Shown here piece after piece: positions 53,550 to 62,743 of a stretch of 64,000 nucleotides of DNA; the stretch's first letter is position 1, and each line of letters starts with the position of its first letter. The notes beneath the pieces are model-generated. The model was not told the DNA's origin, ran no database searches, and saw only the letters and a program-made list of their open reading frames with translations. The position numbers were made by a program, and so were the translations under genes. This DNA comes from Gemmatimonadota bacterium (GTDB lineage: Bacteria; Gemmatimonadota; Gemmatimonadetes; Palauibacterales; Palauibacteraceae), in assembly GCA_022825725.1 (NCBI GenBank), contig JAJDWE010000043.1, positions 1-64,000 on the forward strand, read 5' to 3'.

Positions 53550-54956
53550 GTGAGCATCCATCAGGTACGCTGGTCCCGCCGGTTCGCGGCGGGAAGGAAT
53601 CTCGCAGCCGCGCTGCTCTCCGGCGCGTGCCTCCTCCTGGCGCCGGCCGTCCTCGCCGCGCAGGACGGTGGTGGAGATCTCGGGTTCGTCCTCAACACGT
53701 ATTCGTTCCTCGTCTGGGGCGTGCTCGTGATGTGGATGTGCGCGGGTTTCACGATGCTCGAGGCGGGTTCGGTCCGGTCGAAGAGCGCTTCGATGATCTG
53801 CATGAAGAACATCGGGCTCTACTCGATCGCGGGCCTCGCCTACTACGTCATCGGCTACAACCTCATGTACGTCGATGTCGGGAGCGGGATCGGGTCGATC
53901 AGCTTCTTCTACGGTCCGTCCGCGGATGAAGTGGCGCTCATCGGCGGGAACGAAGGCGCAGCCGGCGCCGTGGCGGAGAACGGCTACTCCGTGATGTCGG
54001 ACTGGTTCTTCCAGATGGTCTTCGTCGCCACGACCGCCTCGATCGTCTCCGGCGCGCTGGCCGAGCGGGTCAAGCTCTGGACCTTCTTCGTCTTCGTGGG
54101 CGTGCTCACCGCGATCATCTACCCCATCGTCGGCGCATGGACGTGGGGCGGCGGCTGGCTCGGACAGATGGGCTTCACGGACTTCGCCGGCTCGACGATC
54201 GTGCACTCGACCGGCGGCTGGGCGGCGCTCGCCGGCGCGCTCGTCGTGGGTCCGCGCTGGGGCAAGTACCGCAAGGACGGCTCCATTCAGCCGACCCCCC
54301 CGTCGAACATCCCCGCGGTCACGCTGGGCGTGTTCATCCTCTGGATGGGCTGGTTCGGCTTCAACGGCGGCTCCGAACTCGCCCTTTCGGGCGTCGTCAA
54401 CGCGGTGTCGATGAGCAACATCCTCGTGAACACGAACCTCGCCGCGGCGGCCGGCGTCATCACGGCGCTCTGCCTGTCCCGGTCCATCCTCGGCCGGGTC
54501 GACCTCTTCGCCACGCTCAACGGGGCGATCTCCGGCATGGTGGCGATCACGGCCGGGCCGAACATCACGAACTCGCTGTGGGCGATCCTGATCGGCGCCG
54601 TCGGCTCCCTCCTGTGCATGCTCGGACTGAAGCTGCTGGAGGTGCGGCGGGTCGACGATGTGGTCGGGGCGGTGCCCGCGCACCTGTTCGCCGGAATCTG
54701 GGGCACGCTCGCCACCTGCATCGCGGCCGGCGGCGACCCCGTCGTGCAGTTGACCGGCATCGTGGCCGTCGGCGCGTTCGCCTTCTCCGTTTCCTGGATC
54801 CTCTGGATGGTGCTGGACCGGGTGATGGGGGTTCGCGTGTCGCGGAGCGTCGAGAGCATCGGCCAGGACGCGGCGGAACTCGGGATCGATGCCTATCCCG
54901 AATTCGTCCTCATGGTGGATCCCGACGCCGACGACGACTACCGCGACGCGGACTGA
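53550..54956 (+). CDS. amt: Ammonium transporter (Amt)
   Basis: 468 residues from GTG 53550, preceded by AAGGAGGAG. A cleavable signal peptide ending VLAA-QD precedes 11 membrane helices, as in many Amt proteins. The family block AGFTMLEAGSVRSKSASMI and the pore histidines in STIVHSTGGWAAL and PAHLFAGIWGT are intact. It imports ammonium. No GlnK/GlnB gene is next to it, which is unusual; instead it opens a six-gene operon with peptide-modification enzymes and two outer-membrane proteins. Only 25 bases separate it from the ATP-grasp gene. Confidence 0.95.
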   Translation: MSIHQVRWSRRFAAGRNLAAALLSGACLLLAPAVLAAQDGGGDLGFVLNTYSFLVWGVLVMWMCAGFTMLEAGSVRSKSASMICMKNIGLYSIAGLAYYVIGYNLMYVDVGSGIGSISFFYGPSADEVALIGGNEGAAGAVAENGYSVMSDWFFQMVFVATTASIVSGALAERVKLWTFFVFVGVLTAIIYPIVGAWTWGGGWLGQMGFTDFAGSTIVHSTGGWAALAGALVVGPRWGKYRKDGSIQPTPPSNIPAVTLGVFILWMGWFGFNGGSELALSGVVNAVSMSNILVNTNLAAAAGVITALCLSRSILGRVDLFATLNGAISGMVAITAGPNITNSLWAILIGAVGSLLCMLGLKLLEVRRVDDVVGAVPAHLFAGIWGTLATCIAAGGDPVVQLTGIVAVGAFAFSVSWILWMVLDRVMGVRVSRSVESIGQDAAELGIDAYPEFVLMVDPDADDDYRDAD

Positions 54957-54981
54957 GCGTCCCCCGCACGCGAACCGCGCG

Positions 54982-56481
54982 ATGTCGGCGGTGAAGTTTG
55001 TCGATCACGGCTATGCCGACCCGGACCCCGCCATCTCGGCGGGGTCCGGGCCTTTCCGCCATTACGAACTGGATTCCGCGTTTCACGACGAGTTGTTTCA
55101 CGAGGACGGTACTCCCCGGGCGCGGGCGCGCCGACTCGGAGCCGCCCTCTCCCGGATCCCCCCCGAGGATCTCGAGCGGCTCCAGGACGGCGTGTACCGC
55201 CGTTTCGTCCATGAGGGGATCACGTTCACGGTCCTCGGCGTCGAGGATGTCTCGGAGCAGATCATCCCCATCGACTGCGTGCCGCGCCTCATCACGGCCG
55301 AGGAGTGGGATCACATCGAGCGGGGGCTGAAGCAGCGCCTCACGGCCCTCAACCTGTTCCTCCACGACGTCTACCACGACGGGAAGTCGCTGCGGGATGG
55401 CATCGTCCCCCTCGACCTCGTGCTCGGCTGTCCCCAGTACCGTATCGAGATGCGGGGGATGAAGGTGCCGCACGACGTGTACGTTGCCGTGTGCGGGACG
55501 GACATCGTGCGGGCGGGCGACACCTTCGCGGTGCTGGAGGACAATCTCCGGGTCCCGTCGGGCGTCTCCTACATGCTCGCCTGCCGCACGGCGATGAAAT
55601 GGGCCTTCCCGTATCTGTATCGAGCGTACGGGGTCCGCGAGGTGGCGGACTATCCGGAGCGCCTCTACTCGACGATCGCGTCGCTATCGCTGACCGCGGA
55701 CACGCCCCGCATGGCGGTGCTGACGCCGGGCCGATACAACTCCGCCTACTACGAGCACGCGTTTCTCGCCGGCGAGATGGGCGTCGACCTCGTGGAGGGG
55801 CGGGATCTCGTGGTGCACGACGCGACGCTGTACGCCCGCACGGCCGCGGGTCTGCGCCGGATCGACGTGCTCTACCGGCGAATCGATGACGATTTTCTGG
55901 ATCCGGTCGCCTTCCGGGAAGACTCCGTGCTCGGGGCCGCCGGTCTCTTCCACGCGTACCGCGCCGGGAACCTCGTGCTCGCCAATGCGCCGGGCACGGG
56001 CGTGGCGGACGACAAGGCGTTGTATGCCTACGTCCCGCGCCTCATCCGCTATTTCCTGGATGAAGAGCCGATTCTGGCCAACGTGGAAACCCACCTCTGC
56101 CGAGAGCCGGACGGCCTCGCCTACACGCTCGACAACCTCGAGGAACTCGTCGTGAAGGAGGTCGGCGGGTCGGGCGGCTACGGGATGCTCGTGGGCCCGC
56201 ATGCGACGGAGGCCGAGCGGAGGGCGTTCGCCGAGCACCTGCGCAGCGATCCGGCGAACTACATCTCGCAGCCGGTGCTGCCCCTTTCGCGGGCGGGCTG
56301 TTTCGTGGACGGACGCCTGGAGCCTCGCCACGTGGACCTGCGCCCCTTCGTTCTCCAGGGGAGGGACGAGCAGCACGTGGTTCCCGGGGGCCTGTGCCGC
56401 GTCGCGCTGCGCAAGGGAAGCCTCGTCGTGAACTCCAGCCAGGGCGGAGGCTGCAAGGACCTGTGGATCCTGCGTGAGTAG
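54982..56481 (+). CDS. Circularly permuted ATP-grasp protein (CP_ATPgrasp type 2)
   Basis: 499 residues from ATG 54982. The blocks HYELDSAFHDELF, RLQDGVYRRFVHEGITFTV, TALNLFLHDVYHDGKSLRDG and VYVAVCGTDIVRAGDTFAVLEDNLRVPSGVSYM (residues about 170-202) define the circularly permuted ATP-grasp proteins (former DUF404/DUF407). ATP-grasp metal/phosphate residues are in VLEDNLRVP and VKEVGGSGGYGM. ATP-grasp enzymes make amide bonds between carboxylates and amines; this type is predicted to form peptide-like bonds in systems with an alpha-E protein and a transglutaminase, both encoded just downstream. The substrate is not known. Confidence 0.85.
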   Translation: MSAVKFVDHGYADPDPAISAGSGPFRHYELDSAFHDELFHEDGTPRARARRLGAALSRIPPEDLERLQDGVYRRFVHEGITFTVLGVEDVSEQIIPIDCVPRLITAEEWDHIERGLKQRLTALNLFLHDVYHDGKSLRDGIVPLDLVLGCPQYRIEMRGMKVPHDVYVAVCGTDIVRAGDTFAVLEDNLRVPSGVSYMLACRTAMKWAFPYLYRAYGVREVADYPERLYSTIASLSLTADTPRMAVLTPGRYNSAYYEHAFLAGEMGVDLVEGRDLVVHDATLYARTAAGLRRIDVLYRRIDDDFLDPVAFREDSVLGAAGLFHAYRAGNLVLANAPGTGVADDKALYAYVPRLIRYFLDEEPILANVETHLCREPDGLAYTLDNLEELVVKEVGGSGGYGMLVGPHATEAERRAFAEHLRSDPANYISQPVLPLSRAGCFVDGRLEPRHVDLRPFVLQGRDEQHVVPGGLCRVALRKGSLVVNSSQGGGCKDLWILRE

Positions 56482-56505
56482 CGGCCGGGAGAGGGGCGCC
56501 GGACG

Positions 56506-57489
56506 ATGCTAGCCCGGATGGCGGCGAACTTCTACTGGCTCGGGCGCTATGCGGAACGGACCGAGAACACGGCCCGTCTGCTCGAGTATCAGCTGACCCG
56601 GCTCGTGGATACGGATGCCGACGAACTCGCCCTCGGGTGGCGCGTCGTGTACCGGGCGCTGAGCCAGTCCCCTCCGCACGCGCCGGCAGATGTGGACGAA
56701 GCCGAGGCCTTCCTCATCGCGGATGCCTACACGTTGACTGGCGGCCTCGTCGAGGACACGACGAACCCGGCATCGATGATTTCGTGCTGGGGGATGGCGC
56801 GGGAGAACGCCAGGGAGATCCGGCCCCGGCTGCCCCTGCCCGTGTGGGTTTGCCTGAACCAGGGGTTCCTCTGGCTCCAGGAGACCGAGTTCGCCGACGC
56901 CTGGGGCGAAGGTCCCGCGGCGCTGGTGAGCCGGGCGATCGACCGGCTCCGCCTCCTCGCGGGAGTCGTGGACGCCAACATGGCGCGTGACGATGCATGG
57001 CGGTTCCTCGAAATCGGCCGTTACGTGGAGCGGCTGCAGCAGCAGGTCGTGCTGCTCGACATGTGGGATCGGATCGCGCGGCCGGACGGTGATGGCCTGG
57101 TCCTTTCCTGGGCCGACTTGCTCCGCGTGTGCGGCGCCTTCGAACCCTACCGCCGGGATCGGTCGCTCACCCTGCGGCGCAGCTCCGTGCTCGGGTTTCT
57201 GCTGCGGAACCCCGAGGTCTCCCGTTCCGTGCGCTACGCGACCGACCGTATCGGATCCGCGCTGCGGGGAATCGACCCGGCCGGTGGACGTCCGCCGCTC
57301 GCCCCCCCGCACCGCATGGTGCTCCGCATGGCGGCGGCCCTCGAGCTCGACCCGGGCGAGGAGGAACCCCCACCCGATGGGGCGTCCGCGGAGGTCTTCG
57401 AGTCTCTGACGCGCGACAGCCGGACGCTGCACAGCCTCGTCCAGGCCTCGTACGTCGACTACCCGGTGGCCGCGGGGCTCCCATCATGA
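56506..57489 (+). CDS. Alpha-E domain protein (DUF403)
   Basis: 327 residues, nearly all helical. MLARMAANFYWLGRYAERTE followed by NTARLLEYQLTRLVD is the diagnostic N-terminus of alpha-E (DUF403) proteins; RAIDRLRLLAGVVDANMARD and FLEIGRYVERLQQQVVLLD match the central repeat. Alpha-E proteins always travel with the permuted ATP-grasp enzyme and a transglutaminase; their biochemical role is not established, possibly as a partner or carrier. It overlaps the next gene by four bases. Confidence 0.9.
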   Translation: MLARMAANFYWLGRYAERTENTARLLEYQLTRLVDTDADELALGWRVVYRALSQSPPHAPADVDEAEAFLIADAYTLTGGLVEDTTNPASMISCWGMARENAREIRPRLPLPVWVCLNQGFLWLQETEFADAWGEGPAALVSRAIDRLRLLAGVVDANMARDDAWRFLEIGRYVERLQQQVVLLDMWDRIARPDGDGLVLSWADLLRVCGAFEPYRRDRSLTLRRSSVLGFLLRNPEVSRSVRYATDRIGSALRGIDPAGGRPPLAPPHRMVLRMAAALELDPGEEEPPPDGASAEVFESLTRDSRTLHSLVQASYVDYPVAAGLPS

Positions 57490-58358
57490 TCGCGCGCTAC
57501 ACCATCGAACACGCGATCGAGTTCGTCTACAGCGCGCCGGTGACGGTGTCCGTCATGACGCTTTACCTGCACCCCGCGCAGGACCGAAGGCAGGTCGTGC
57601 GCGGGTTCACGCTCGAGACCGACCCGTCCGGCTCCGTATTCGAATTCGAAGGACCCTTTCACAATCGGGGCCACTTCTTCGATCGCCCCGGAAAGCACCG
57701 CCGTCTCTCGATCGTCGGACGTTCGACGGTGGAGGTGGGTCCGATACCGGAGACGCCCTCCGAGGTCGGGGAAGACGCGTGGGCCCGGCTCGGCGCCGCG
57801 ACGAGCGCTCCCGAACTCGGGCTGATGCTGCAGCCGAGCCGTTTCGTCCGCTCCTCGCCGCTCCTCGCCGACTTCATCGGCAGCTGCGGCATCGAACGCG
57901 GGGACGATCCGCTGGCGACCGCCACGGCTCTGGGGAGCCGGCTCCACGAGTCGTTTGATTATATTCCAGGTACGACCGCCGTGGATTCGCCGATCGAGCG
58001 CATCCTCGAGAGCCGCGAAGGCGTGTGCCAGGACTACGCTCACGTCATGGCGTCGATCCTGCGGGGCTGGGGGATCCCGACGCGTTACGTGTCGGGCTAT
58101 CTGGGTCCGGACGGCGGAAACGGCGGTGGCGCGGCGACGGGAGAGAGCCACGCCTGGGTCGAGAGCTGGTTCCCGGGCCTGGGATGGGTCGGCTTCGATC
58201 CGACCAACGACACACAATGCGACGAGCGCCATGTGCGGGTCGCGGTGGGGCGCGACTATGCCGACGTTCCGCCGACTCGCGGCGTCTTCCGGGGTTCCGC
58301 GGAGTCCATGCTTCGCACCCGGGTCACCATAGAAAGAGGAGGAGAATCGTGCCCGTGA
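57486..58358 (+). CDS. Transglutaminase-like cysteine peptidase
   Basis: 290 residues from ATG 57486, overlapping the alpha-E stop. The N-terminal transglutaminase-associated domain (YTIEHAIEFVYSAPVTVSVM) is followed by the papain-like core with the triad Cys181 (EGVCQDYAHVM), His222 (ESHAWVE) and Asp238 (WVGFDPTND). All three residues are present, so it should be an active cysteine hydrolase or acyltransferase. In these systems it is thought to cleave or remodel the amide bonds made by the ATP-grasp enzyme. No signal peptide is visible. Confidence 0.9.
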   Translation: MIARYTIEHAIEFVYSAPVTVSVMTLYLHPAQDRRQVVRGFTLETDPSGSVFEFEGPFHNRGHFFDRPGKHRRLSIVGRSTVEVGPIPETPSEVGEDAWARLGAATSAPELGLMLQPSRFVRSSPLLADFIGSCGIERGDDPLATATALGSRLHESFDYIPGTTAVDSPIERILESREGVCQDYAHVMASILRGWGIPTRYVSGYLGPDGGNGGGAATGESHAWVESWFPGLGWVGFDPTNDTQCDERHVRVAVGRDYADVPPTRGVFRGSAESMLRTRVTIERGGESCP

Positions 58359-59071
58359 TCCGCGTTGATTCGTTCCGGTTCCGGGGGCTCCGGCTCGTTG
58401 TTGCCGTTGCCGCCCTCTTCGCCTTCGCGGTCCCCGCACAGGGCCAGTCCGTCTCCATCGGGGCCGACGTCGTGAGCCGCTATGTCTGGCGCGGCGTCGA
58501 CTTCGGAGAATCCATGGCCGTGCAGCCGGCGATCACCTTCGGGACCGGAGGGCTCGAATTCGGCGCGTGGGGTTCGTACTCCATCTCCGCATCGGGCGCC
58601 TCGGCCAACGAGAACGATCTCTGGGCGACCTACACCGTGACGGCCGAGTCCGGCCTCTCCGTCGCGGTCGGAATCACCGACTACTACTTCCCTTCGCCCG
58701 GCGCGGACGCTGGCTTCGGGGCCGGCGCGGCCCACACGGTGGAGTTGTCGCTCGGCTTCTCGGGTCCCGAGACCTTCCCGATCTCGCTCTTCGGAGGCAT
58801 GCTTACCGAGAGCAGCGTGCTGTACGCGGAGGTGGGCGTGCCCTTTGCGATTACCGGAGCGGATGTCGAACTGCAGCTGCACATGGGTTTCGTGGGCGGC
58901 GAGAGCGATTTCTACGGCACCGACGAGGCGGCCCTGGTCAACCTGGGGGTCACGGCGAGCAAGGACCTCGCGATCACCGAAACCTTCGCCGTGCCGGTGA
59001 GCGTCGCGTACATCCTGAACCCCGATCAGGATCGCGCGCACCTGGTGTTCGGCTTCAGCATCGCGCCCTGA
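58349..59071 (+). CDS. TorF-family outer-membrane porin
   Basis: 240 residues from GTG 58349, preceded by AGGAGGAG. The signal peptide ends PAQG-QS. The mature N-terminus VSIGADVVSRYVWRGVDFGE is the family hallmark (Gcw_chp/TorF), followed by VQPAITFGTGGLEFGAWGSY and further alternating strands, ending FGFSIAP. Other copies of this family are often found near ammonium transporters or nitrogen regulators, as here. It overlaps the transglutaminase by ten bases, which makes co-expression likely. Confidence 0.85.
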   Translation: MPVIRVDSFRFRGLRLVVAVAALFAFAVPAQGQSVSIGADVVSRYVWRGVDFGESMAVQPAITFGTGGLEFGAWGSYSISASGASANENDLWATYTVTAESGLSVAVGITDYYFPSPGADAGFGAGAAHTVELSLGFSGPETFPISLFGGMLTESSVLYAEVGVPFAITGADVELQLHMGFVGGESDFYGTDEAALVNLGVTASKDLAITETFAVPVSVAYILNPDQDRAHLVFGFSIAP

Positions 59072-59078
59072 GTAAGCG

Positions 59079-61520
59079 ATGACGCGCCCGGGAGTGCCGC
59101 GTGTGAGGAAATTGATGCGGGCCGCCCCGCTCCTGCTTTTTTCCGCCTGTTCGCTGGCTCCGGGGCCGTCCCTTCCGGAGCCCGTGGCGGAGATGCCGGA
59201 CGGTTTCTCGGCCCGGTTGCAGCCGGGGGCATACGAGCCGCTGGAGTGGTGGACGACGTTTCGGGATCCGGTGCTCGACGCCGTCGTCGATTCCGTGCTC
59301 GCCTCCAACTTCGACCTCGCCGCGGGCGTTGCGCGCGTCCAGCAGGCTCGCGCCAGGGCGCGCATCGCGCGGGCCGACCTCTTCCCGAGCGTGGGGGCGA
59401 GCGGAACCGTCGCCGACACCGACACGCCGACGGACGCCGGCATCGGCGCGCAGATTCAGGCCCTCGGGCTCGGCGGTCCGGGGGATTCGATCGCGGGGTT
59501 CGCGTTTCCCGACAGAATCGAGCTGACGACGTATTCCGTGAGCGCGGATTTCGCCTACGAGCTGGATTTCTGGGGACGCGCCCGCAACGACGCGCGGGCC
59601 GCCGGGTCGGAGTATCTGGCCTCGGAGTCGGATTTCCACGCGGCGCGGATCGGCATCCTCGCCGAGACCATCACCACGTACTTCGACATCGTCAGCCTGC
59701 GGCGGCAGACCGAACTGGCCCGCGAGGCGGTGGGGGTGCTGCTCGAACGCGAGTCGCTGGCTTCGACGAGCTACGATCGCGGCCTGATCGATTCCTGGAC
59801 GCTGTCCCAGGTTCGCCAGGATCTCAGGAACACGCAGGCAGGGCTGCCACAACTCGAGACGCAGCTCACAAGCGCCGAAGCCCGCCTGGCCGTGCTGCTG
59901 GGCGGCTATCGGGAGGATGTCGAAGCGATTCTGCCCGACGCCCTCGCGCCGCAGCTGGCGGCGGATCCCGTCCCCGCCGGGGTTCCGGCGGACCTCCTGT
60001 TCCAGCGGCCCGACGTAAGGGCGGCGGGCCAGCGGCTCGACGCGGCCCGCTACAGCATCGGCGCGCGCCGGGCGCAACTGCTTCCGTCGCTCTCGCTGTC
60101 CGGTTCCATCGGGCTGGCAAGCGCGGACGCGGGCGAACTCTTCAACGCGCAGCAATGGTTCACGAATCTGATCACGAACCTCACCGCGCCCATCTTCCAG
60201 GCGGGTCGGCTCCGGAACAATCTCGCGCTTGCCGAGGGCCTCTTCGATGAGGCGGCCGCCGCCTACGGACGGACGGTGGTTACAGCGGTGAACGAAGTCG
60301 AAACCACGCTCGCCGGTTTCGAGAACGAGACCCGGCGGCACGCGTTCCTCGCTTCCCAGCGCGACGAGGCGCTGGCTACGATGGAACTGCAGTCGCAGCG
60401 GTACGAGTCGGGCGTCGTGGGCTATACGGACTACCTTGACGCCCTGCGCACGCTCCTGAACGTCGAGGCGGCGCTGGCGGGTGCGACACGGGATCTGGCC
60501 CTGGCGAGGCTGGCCGTCCATCGGGCGCTGGGAGGCGCCTGGGCGTCGCCCGAGGCGGTCCCCGAGCCGCGCATGGTCCCGACATCCGGGAACAGCGAAG
60601 AGGCCGACCTCTTCGACCCCAACTACCTCGGGACCTACTCGATCATCGGACGCGATCCCGCGACCGGTGAACTGGGGATGGGCGTGCAGTCGAAAGCGTT
60701 CGGGGCGGGAAACCGCGCGATGCACGCGAAGGGCGGACTCGTGATCATCGCCCACCAGGCCGCCGCGAACCCCATGTACGGGGCGATCGGCATCCAGCTC
60801 CTCCAGGCCGGCTACTCGCCCGAGGAGGCCCTCGAGATGATGGTGGGGAGCGACGAGGGCCGGGATCGCCGCCAGGTCGCGATCCTCGACCAGCAGGGAC
60901 GGACGGCCGCCTGGACCGGCACCGGCGCGAGCGACTGGAAGGGCCACCGGTGCGGCGTGAACTACTGTGCGCAGGGGAACATCCTCACGGGGCCCGAGGT
61001 CGTCGACGCGATGGCGGCCTCGTTCGAATCGTCCACCGGCCCGCTGGCGGAACGGCTCATGGATGCGCTCGACGCCGCGCAGGCGGCGGGCGGCGACGCG
61101 CGCGGCATGCAGTCCGGTGCCATCCTCGTCGTGGCCCCGCGGGTCAACGGCGGCTACAGCGACCGCGTCGTCGACATCCGCGTGGACGACCACGACGAAC
61201 CGCTTGCCGAACTGCGCCGAGTCCTCGACATGTACCGTTCGGGTCAGATGCTGCGCGAAGCCTCGCGGATGAGGCGGGACGGAGATTTGCAGGGCGCCCT
61301 GGCGATGGCGCGCGAAGCCTCGGCCAGGTCGCCGGAGAACGACAACGCGTGGGTCACGCTGGCCGCGCTCCTGCTTGACGGCGGAAGCGAAGACGACGCG
61401 TTCGACGCCCTGGAGCGGGCGGTGGAACTCAATCCCGGACGACGGCGCACCCTGCCGGATGCGGGCGACTTCGAGCGCGTGCGCGAGGATCCACGCTTCC
61501 TGAGGCTCATCGGCCGCTAG
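59079..61520 (+). CDS. TolC/NodT-type outer-membrane channel fused to DUF1028 and TPR
   Basis: 813 residues in one open frame. Residues 1-490 are an outer-membrane efflux protein of the NodT/CusC type: lipobox FSAC near residue 24, the Pro-rich EPVAEMPDG linker, WWTTFRDPVLDAVVDSVLAS, and paired coiled-coil repeats with YELDFWGRARNDARAAGSEY and PADLLFQRPDVRAAGQRLDA. Residues 519-722 are a complete DUF1028 Ntn-hydrolase-like domain beginning GTYSIIGRDPATGELGMGVQ and containing QGNILTGPEVVDAMAASFES and DIRVDDHDEPLAELRRVLDM. Residues 730-813 are TPR-like. The linker around residue 505 (VPTSGNSEEADLFDPNYL) has no internal start codon. Such a fusion is not a family I know. Confidence 0.85.
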   Translation: MTRPGVPRVRKLMRAAPLLLFSACSLAPGPSLPEPVAEMPDGFSARLQPGAYEPLEWWTTFRDPVLDAVVDSVLASNFDLAAGVARVQQARARARIARADLFPSVGASGTVADTDTPTDAGIGAQIQALGLGGPGDSIAGFAFPDRIELTTYSVSADFAYELDFWGRARNDARAAGSEYLASESDFHAARIGILAETITTYFDIVSLRRQTELAREAVGVLLERESLASTSYDRGLIDSWTLSQVRQDLRNTQAGLPQLETQLTSAEARLAVLLGGYREDVEAILPDALAPQLAADPVPAGVPADLLFQRPDVRAAGQRLDAARYSIGARRAQLLPSLSLSGSIGLASADAGELFNAQQWFTNLITNLTAPIFQAGRLRNNLALAEGLFDEAAAAYGRTVVTAVNEVETTLAGFENETRRHAFLASQRDEALATMELQSQRYESGVVGYTDYLDALRTLLNVEAALAGATRDLALARLAVHRALGGAWASPEAVPEPRMVPTSGNSEEADLFDPNYLGTYSIIGRDPATGELGMGVQSKAFGAGNRAMHAKGGLVIIAHQAAANPMYGAIGIQLLQAGYSPEEALEMMVGSDEGRDRRQVAILDQQGRTAAWTGTGASDWKGHRCGVNYCAQGNILTGPEVVDAMAASFESSTGPLAERLMDALDAAQAAGGDARGMQSGAILVVAPRVNGGYSDRVVDIRVDDHDEPLAELRRVLDMYRSGQMLREASRMRRDGDLQGALAMAREASARSPENDNAWVTLAALLLDGGSEDDAFDALERAVELNPGRRRTLPDAGDFERVREDPRFLRLIGR

Positions 61521-61568: not shown

Positions 61569-62612
61569 CTAGTGGTGGTTGGACTCCTCGTAGTGGCGCG
61601 CCAGCGCGTCGCCCCCGAAGTCGTTCTCCAGGTCCCGCCACACCGAGTGGACGTGGTTCGCATCGTTCTGCGTGTTGTCGTACTCGATCAGGAAGACCGG
61701 GGCGTGGACCCGGTAGTAGTGTCCCTCGCCGGGTTCGAGGGATCCTGCCCAGGCGAAATGGATGTCGCCCGCCGGAATCTCGTTCTCGACCCGCATCCTC
61801 CAGTCGGAGTCCGTCGCCGTGTTCCCGGCGTACTCATGCACGATCTCGAACAGGATCGCGCGCTGCTCCGCGGTCATGGCGTCGGCGGCGAGGCCCTCGA
61901 ACGCGCCGAGCCGGGCCTCGCGGGCGTTCCCGGTGAGGATGTCGCTGGGGGCCTCGGCGGCGATGGTCGCCCGCTCGCGCTGGTCCGGCGTGAAGCTCCG
62001 CATCAGCGCCCGGGCCAGGTCCTCCTCCCGCCCCAGGGGCCGCCAGCCCGCCTTCGGACCCGATGGCACGCGGGCCGGGTTCGCGCCCATGAACGCGGGT
62101 CCCGTCACCGTGAGCCGGCCCGAAGGCGATGCGAAGTTGAGGGAGAGGTGATGTCCCTCGAACCGCCATGCCCACGGCCCTTCCGACGACGGGTCGCCGA
62201 AGATCGCGACATAGTAGTTCTCCGGGTTCCGGCGCTCGGGGCGCCCTTCCAGGAGTCCGAGGATTCGCTCCAGTTCGATGATCGCGCTGGCCTTCAGAAA
62301 GCCCTGGCTGCTCATGGCGGCCTGAAGGAGGTCGTGGGCGGCGCCGCGCTGCTCCGTCGTCATGTCGGCGAGCGGCAGTCCGTTCCGCGACCTCGGGACG
62401 AAGTGCCAGTTGAAACGCTCCTCGTCCTCCAGGGAGAAGAGCGCTTTTTCCCGTCCCGCCTCGTCGAGCAGGGCGACGAAGGCCTGAGCGGCGGAGGCCG
62501 CGTCCATCTTCGCGCCGGCTTCTCCTCCGGCCGCAAGCGCGAGTCCGGCCGCGGGGACGAGCAGGCAAGCCCCCCACGTGACCCGTCCCGCCGTCCGATT
62601 CCTGATCTTCAT
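61569..62612 (-). CDS. DUF3500 secreted protein
   Basis: 347 residues from ATG 62612, preceded by GAGGAGGAACG. A signal peptide of about 28 residues is followed by the DUF3500 domain: FSLEDEERFNWHFVPRSRNG, ADMTTEQRGAAHDLLQAAMS, IFGDPSSEGPWAWRFEGHHL and DIHFAWAGSLEPGEGHYYRV, with the end RVHAPVFLIEYDNTQNDANH and HVHSVWRDLENDFGGD. The His-rich conserved residues suggest a metal or heme-type function, but none is established. Convergent with the TolC-DUF1028 gene, 48 bases apart. Confidence 0.85.
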   Translation of the reverse strand: MKIRNRTAGRVTWGACLLVPAAGLALAAGGEAGAKMDAASAAQAFVALLDEAGREKALFSLEDEERFNWHFVPRSRNGLPLADMTTEQRGAAHDLLQAAMSSQGFLKASAIIELERILGLLEGRPERRNPENYYVAIFGDPSSEGPWAWRFEGHHLSLNFASPSGRLTVTGPAFMGANPARVPSGPKAGWRPLGREEDLARALMRSFTPDQRERATIAAEAPSDILTGNAREARLGAFEGLAADAMTAEQRAILFEIVHEYAGNTATDSDWRMRVENEIPAGDIHFAWAGSLEPGEGHYYRVHAPVFLIEYDNTQNDANHVHSVWRDLENDFGGDALARHYEESNHH

Positions 62613-62743
62613 CGTTCCTCCTCCGCTCAACACAGCCGCGGCCGCATGCACTCGCGGATTCGCGCCGCCGGCTTCAAGTTGATCGACCCCGACCGGGGGC
62701 CGATCACCATTCCATATTCCGAAGAACAAGGCAGAATCGCCAG

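Follow-up and report, generated by a model that had tools for sequence, protein, structure and literature searches.

A predicted lipoprotein NodT-type channel fused in frame to a DUF1028 domain and a TPR tail in Candidatus Palauibacter

The window analyzed here is a 64,000-nucleotide stretch of contig JAJDWE010000043.1 from a genome of Candidatus Palauibacter, a genus of Gemmatimonadota that occurs in sponges, in corals and elsewhere in marine environments (PMC10469786). It contains a gene that encodes a predicted lipoprotein outer-membrane channel, a complete DUF1028 domain and a TPR region in a single stop-free frame (Table 1). The original prediction had described this arrangement, and it was borne out by the translation and by the Pfam and NCBIfam matches. 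The NCBIfam outer_NodT model (TIGR01845) matches residues 17–486 with 289.1 bits, compared to a cut-off of 210.05, and the Pfam OEP profile is matched twice, the best stretch being residues 66–275. By its subfamily score, two OEP repeats, lipobox, LGGxW motif and modelled channel fold, the protein belongs with the NodT/OprM factors. The lipobox, either LFSAC or LLSAC, is found in 11 of the 11 fusions described below. The whole DUF1028 profile (PF06267, positions 1–193) is matched at residues 519–712 with 220.4 bits (gathering threshold 26.2), and Gly518 and Thr519 are located where the original prediction had put them. A TPR_19 match covers residues 734–787. The fusion gene holds the sole DUF1028 copy of the source genome, which is 3.49 Mb in size and 97.7% complete.

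Table 1. Features of the fusion gene and its cluster in the window.
Feature	Position	Strand	Basis
Circularly permuted ATP-grasp gene (start uncertain), in the fusion gene's cluster	54889..56481	+	PF14403/PF04174
Alpha-E gene, in the fusion gene's cluster	56506..57489	+	PF04168
Transglutaminase-like gene, in the fusion gene's cluster	57474..58358	+	PF01841, PF08379
Gcw_chp/TorF-like putative porin gene (start uncertain), ending 7 nt before the fusion gene	58355..59071	+	PF09694
NodT::DUF1028::TPR fusion gene, 813 aa	59079..61520	+	One open frame; full-length homologues in 10 same-genus genomes
Lipoprotein signal peptide, lipobox LFSA-C24, Ser at +2	59079..59150	+	Lipobox pattern, 11/11 fusions
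NodT/OprM-type outer-membrane channel, residues 17–486	59127..60536	+	TIGR01845; OEP x2; model compared with OprN/OprM/CusC
LGGAW motif, residues 484–488, conserved OprM-type channel end	60528..60542	+	Motif; OprM role from PMC4790312
Linker, residues 489–518: NodT tail (..EPRMVPTSGNSEEAD) to about residue 510, then DUF1028 mature start LFDPNYLG	60543..60632	+	Comparison with free NodT C-termini and free DUF1028 N-termini; pLDDT; dN/dS
DUF1028 domain (PF06267), residues 519–712, predicted Ntn-hydrolase fold	60633..61214	+	Pfam; model
Thr519, predicted N-terminal-nucleophile position	60633..60635	+	T or S in 49/49 aligned homologues
TPR tail, residues 713–813	61215..61517	+	TPR_19; helices in model; common to free DUF1028-TPR homologues

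Upstream of the fusion gene, behind an ammonium transporter gene, the ATP-grasp, alpha-E and transglutaminase genes are arranged in the order of the Anbu operon (window positions 53550–58358). On the other side, a DUF3500 gene (61569–62618, minus strand) is convergent with the fusion gene and is conserved beside it in the fusion genomes. A functional link between the fusion and the ATP-grasp, alpha-E and transglutaminase genes is possible; the compartments in which their products reside probably differ.

The full-length fusion is present in frame and at the same position in 10 further Candidatus Palauibacter genomes, with 93–98% identity, against the concern raised with the original prediction that no homologue might have it. 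These genomes come from different samples and assemblers (named records L022–L028). Pairwise dN/dS across the 11 genes is lowest in DUF1028 (0.028), followed by the NodT part (0.088), and reaches 0.273 in the TPR part and 0.276 in the linker; every linker indel among these genes is a multiple of three. By these ratios, purifying selection acts on both halves, most strongly on DUF1028, and the low dN/dS and in-frame length changes in the linker indicate that both halves are maintained as protein. Judged from these genes, the fusion is kept across at least eleven species, and the purifying selection on the NodT half in 11 species suggests that this half is probably a working channel, beyond a mere anchor. 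No fusion outside the genus was found when 84,980 species genomes were scanned with seeds from the two halves, an approach that finds close relatives only; nor did the long-frame DUF1028 loci retrieved from a set of 395 Gemmatimonadota genomes show a channel–DUF1028 fusion. Fusions that formed independently in distant groups are possible. Other DUF1028 genes also lie in long open frames (up to 1323 aa), which were considered as OMF fusions and rejected: those retrieved show a signal-peptide-like stretch directly before the domain and are therefore read-through of GC-rich frames. In one genome of the same genus (G001), the whole fusion locus is absent. We rejected this as a natural loss: G001 looks close to another genome, G016, and the neighboring DUF3500 gene is missing as well, so the absence is probably an assembly gap.

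The origin of the fusion can be read from its junction. Free NodT relatives end in RALGGxWT..PRMVPA.. and a stop codon, while in the phylum's free DUF1028-TPR relatives a signal peptide, which ends in ..AQE/D in the nearest ones, precedes YDPNYLG/A-TYS. In the fusion, the sequence RALGGAWASPEAVPEPRMVPTSGNSEEAD is followed directly by LFDPNYLG-TYS. By this comparison, the natural tail of NodT (LGGAW...RMVP) continues at the junction into the sequence with which a secreted DUF1028 protein starts after its signal peptide (DPNYLG-T). NodT has accordingly lost its stop codon and the downstream pump genes, and DUF1028 only its signal peptide. An internal start at Met499 in the linker was rejected, since RMVP is already present in free NodT tails, and a search for a promoter-like site inside the fusion gene found none. 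Linker residues 489–516 are disordered in the AlphaFold2 model (pLDDT <50).

In the AlphaFold2 model of the full protein (mean pLDDT 78.5, pTM 0.49), the channel was mostly confident, and the DUF1028 and TPR parts were confident. Foldseek matched the channel to OprN, OprM and CusC (TMt 0.75 for OprN), and the DUF1028 domain to 2IMH, with an RMSD of 1.5 Å over 201 columns. A separate model of the DUF1028-TPR head (pLDDT 92.7) had 2IMH as its best match, followed by designed TPRs, a 20S proteasome subunit and Anbu (5NYW). Thus, DUF1028 is predicted to have the Ntn (alpha-beta-beta-alpha) fold, which fits the SCOPe class d.153.1.7 of SPO2555/2IMH, a protein termed uncharacterised (PMC9140057), and the earlier description of the domain as Ntn-hydrolase-like holds at the level of predicted fold. 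The literature searched contained neither an activity for any DUF1028 protein nor a paper naming DUF1028 or PF06267. The original prediction had also described the Thr, usually at the very start of DUF1028 proteins, as buried here after a linker. That the fusion is the cause was not borne out: in the free secreted DUF1028 proteins of the phylum that we examined, the Thr is likewise preceded by a signal peptide plus a short spacer, so a buried Thr is a general trait of secreted DUF1028 proteins that the fusion did not create. In an alignment of 49 rows, the nucleophile column contains T in 47 and S in 2, whereas the preceding residue varies (A in 26, H in 10, G in 8, S in 3, and Y and N in 1 each). 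By analogy with Ntn-hydrolases, which are made as precursors and self-cleave before the nucleophile (PMC9140057), self-cleavage at Gly518-Thr519 is possible; the variable residue at −1 would neither prove nor exclude self-processing.

A derived form of the gene occurs in Ca. P. poriticola (L057), at the same place and in the same cluster. It reads MTRTG..LLLSACSLAPAPSLPEP joined to RMVPASGAADP..DPNYLGTYS, and retains the lipobox, the NodT start, the NodT tail and DUF1028-TPR, while the channel (window residues 36–497) is deleted in frame. Because both the NodT start and the NodT tail are present, this form arose by a secondary deletion of the channel, apparently between two short repeats coding for PEP, and the product is predicted to be a DUF1028-TPR outer-membrane lipoprotein. 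This channel loss is documented in one MAG. We considered the possibility that the contig was unreliable, as its amt gene looks broken, and rejected it: the amt break is a 24-N scaffold gap, Ns occur only in amt, and the deletion region is contiguous and free of Ns. In the tree, the nodes that place Ca. P. poriticola inside or beside the fusion clade have a support of 21–39, and the clade with the fusions has 99. Two other architectures were observed. In one MAG of the genus (G004; L071:6963-8906, JAKSCH010000277.1), DUF1028-TPR lies in frame behind a short-chain dehydrogenase (SDR, PF00106), giving a 648-aa protein in which the SDR brings its own N-terminal signal-like stretch; this is another DUF1028 fusion within the genus, independent of the first. 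Another locus (L091:3928-5937, JAJEBS010000325.1) encodes two tandem DUF1028 domains, with TPR between them, in one 670-aa frame. From the Ca. P. poriticola, SDR and tandem cases, DUF1028-TPR behaves as a portable cargo whose export signal is supplied by its partner.

The contig of the window has no RND gene, so the fusion gene is not beside an adaptor–RND pair. Where the flank is long enough, the gene right after a free NodT relative encodes an adaptor; at more than 40 of these loci an RND gene comes next, and a few have no RND hit. On another contig of the source genome (C17; L178:9250-13693), we observed an adaptor (MFP)–RND pair with no OMF gene beside it. Its adaptor and RND are 60% and 58% identical to those of free NodT operons, the arrangement is syntenic in several relatives, and the pair is present in the fusion genomes. 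We infer that this pair is the best candidate partner in trans for the fused channel. The C17 RND is closest (76–82%) to those of Latescibacterota operons, which suggests transfer among symbionts; since the NodT of those operons is less like the fused one (54–61% identity), the pair may not be the old operon partner of the fused NodT. Co-loss of pump and channel in Ca. P. poriticola (G015), where the C17-type adaptor seemed to be missing, was considered and dropped. The RND there reaches the end of contig C50, beside a conserved Rieske gene, and the adaptor is therefore probably in an assembly gap.

The position of the head can be judged from OprM and TolC. Expression of OprM depends on its LGGGW motif; the tail beyond it is deletable or exchangeable, though it can matter for adaptor pairing. 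The C-terminal tail follows this motif in both OprM and TolC, and in TolC, where it is longer, it is located in the equatorial domain (PMC4790312). The equatorial belt has been proposed to contact peptidoglycan, and at this belt TolC is joined by YbjP, a distinct lipoprotein (PMC13082787). The original prediction had placed DUF1028 at the inner end of the channel, which is unlikely: because the extension starts right after LGGAW (residues 484–488), the head should, by the tail anatomy of OprM and TolC (PMC4790312), be suspended from the belt rather than from the inner coiled-coil end, and would be held near the equatorial belt of the channel.

The explanation that we favor, to which we give about an even chance, is that the fused channel carries an autonomous Ntn-type hydrolase of the periplasm and anchors it to the outer membrane, and possibly still serves a pump as well. 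The periplasmic C-terminus of an OprM/NodT channel would have become a tether for a formerly secreted, autonomous DUF1028-TPR protein. The product would be exported via the NodT lipoprotein signal, acquire a lipid at Cys24, be targeted to the outer membrane and trimerise like other NodT channels, each trimer carrying three DUF1028-TPR heads on flexible 30-residue leashes. By OprM/TolC anatomy, the leash would exit the channel at the equatorial belt, at approximately the height of the peptidoglycan layer. Thr519 may be exposed by self-cleavage at Gly518-Thr519, in which case the head would be either released or held non-covalently. It would most likely act by hydrolysing an amide bond of a substrate in the periplasm. 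The channel would be mainly a carrier and anchor and may still serve an RND pump in trans, most plausibly the C17 pair. Ca. P. poriticola has deleted the channel and kept the lipobox and DUF1028-TPR, so that the head is retained there in the absence of the channel.

It is considerably less likely that the two halves form one functionally coupled machine, in which the DUF1028 heads act on pump substrates, or gate or brace the channel. Gene fusion often signals functional linkage, both halves are conserved jointly in 11 species, the fusion genomes contain an MFP–RND pair without an OMF of its own, and TolC–YbjP offers a precedent at the same belt (PMC13082787). However, the head occurs without the channel in Ca. 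P. poriticola, and in G004 it follows an unrelated SDR. In the loci compared, free DUF1028 genes are not next to free NodT genes, and the leash is disordered and fast-evolving. Furthermore, the lumen of an assembled pump is shut off from the periplasm, so that heads outside the belt could hardly reach the cargo.

We attach the same low likelihood to a polyprotein that is cleaved at Gly518-Thr519 after export, so that an ordinary NodT channel and an ordinary soluble DUF1028-TPR protein result. The self-cleavage of Ntn-hydrolase precursors (PMC9140057), the invariance of Thr519, the pro-segment carried by secreted relatives and the disordered linker are consistent with such processing, but the varying −1 residue means that no cleavage motif is kept, and in Ca. 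P. poriticola the predicted lipid anchor is kept on the head. Slightly more doubtful is an enzyme-armed efflux channel, in which a self-activating Ntn hydrolase on each subunit would couple export with breakdown or wall remodelling in one trimeric machine.

The upstream genes raise the further question of whether DUF1028 replaces Anbu as the Ntn-type partner of an ATP-grasp/alpha-E/transglutaminase operon, which we consider highly improbable. These three genes are the set that accompanies Anbu elsewhere (PMC6376114), and the cluster contains the first three genes of the operon and lacks Anbu. Anbu was not found in the source genome, where the only proteasome-family hit was hslV beside hslU, and the DUF1028 model matches Anbu 5NYW, although after 2IMH and proteasomes. 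On the other hand, DUF1028 is predicted to be periplasmic, whereas Anbu is not known to carry an export signal, the free DUF1028 copies in relatives are located away from such genes, and the same cluster includes the ammonium transporter and porin-like genes. Finally, a neutral accident or artefact (read-through or an assembly join without function) can practically be discounted: the confinement to one genus and the lack of the whole locus in G001 would fit it, but it is largely refuted by the conservation in 11 MAGs, by dN/dS far below 1 in both halves and by linker indels that stay in frame.

DUF1028 is an Ntn-fold family without known activity, and its fusion to a lipid-anchored channel would fix its working compartment as the periplasm, on the outer-membrane side, which narrows the search for its substrate. 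Through the fusion, what is probably a periplasmic enzyme would become bound to the outer membrane; the fusion has been kept in many species of one genus and was once reduced to an anchor and an enzyme-like domain. The C-terminus of an OprM-type channel can thus carry a whole enzyme-like cargo in nature.

Like other NodT/OprM factors (TIGR01845; OprM, OprN, CusC and VceC), the fusion has the lipobox, two OEP repeats, the LGGxW end and the modelled fold; unlike them, it has a 300-residue enzyme-like extension after LGGAW and no adjoining adaptor–RND pair. It shares with SPO2555/2IMH (PF06267, SCOPe d.153.1.7) the whole domain, the Thr at the nucleophile position and the fold, but the DUF1028 domain of 2IMH starts directly with Thr-Phe-Ser, whereas Thr519 lies behind the channel and a TPR tail is added. 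The secreted DUF1028-TPR proteins of Gemmatimonadota are 69–79% identical to it over DUF1028-TPR and have the same start (DPNYLG/A-T), but have their own signal peptide and neither channel nor lipid anchor. The SDR-DUF1028-TPR protein of G004, from the same genus, also has DUF1028-TPR in frame behind another domain, although its partner is a short-chain dehydrogenase and it is represented by one MAG. Finally, E. coli TolC–YbjP likewise has an additional lipid-anchored periplasmic domain at a TolC-family channel (PMC13082787), in that case as a separate protein that is not a DUF1028.
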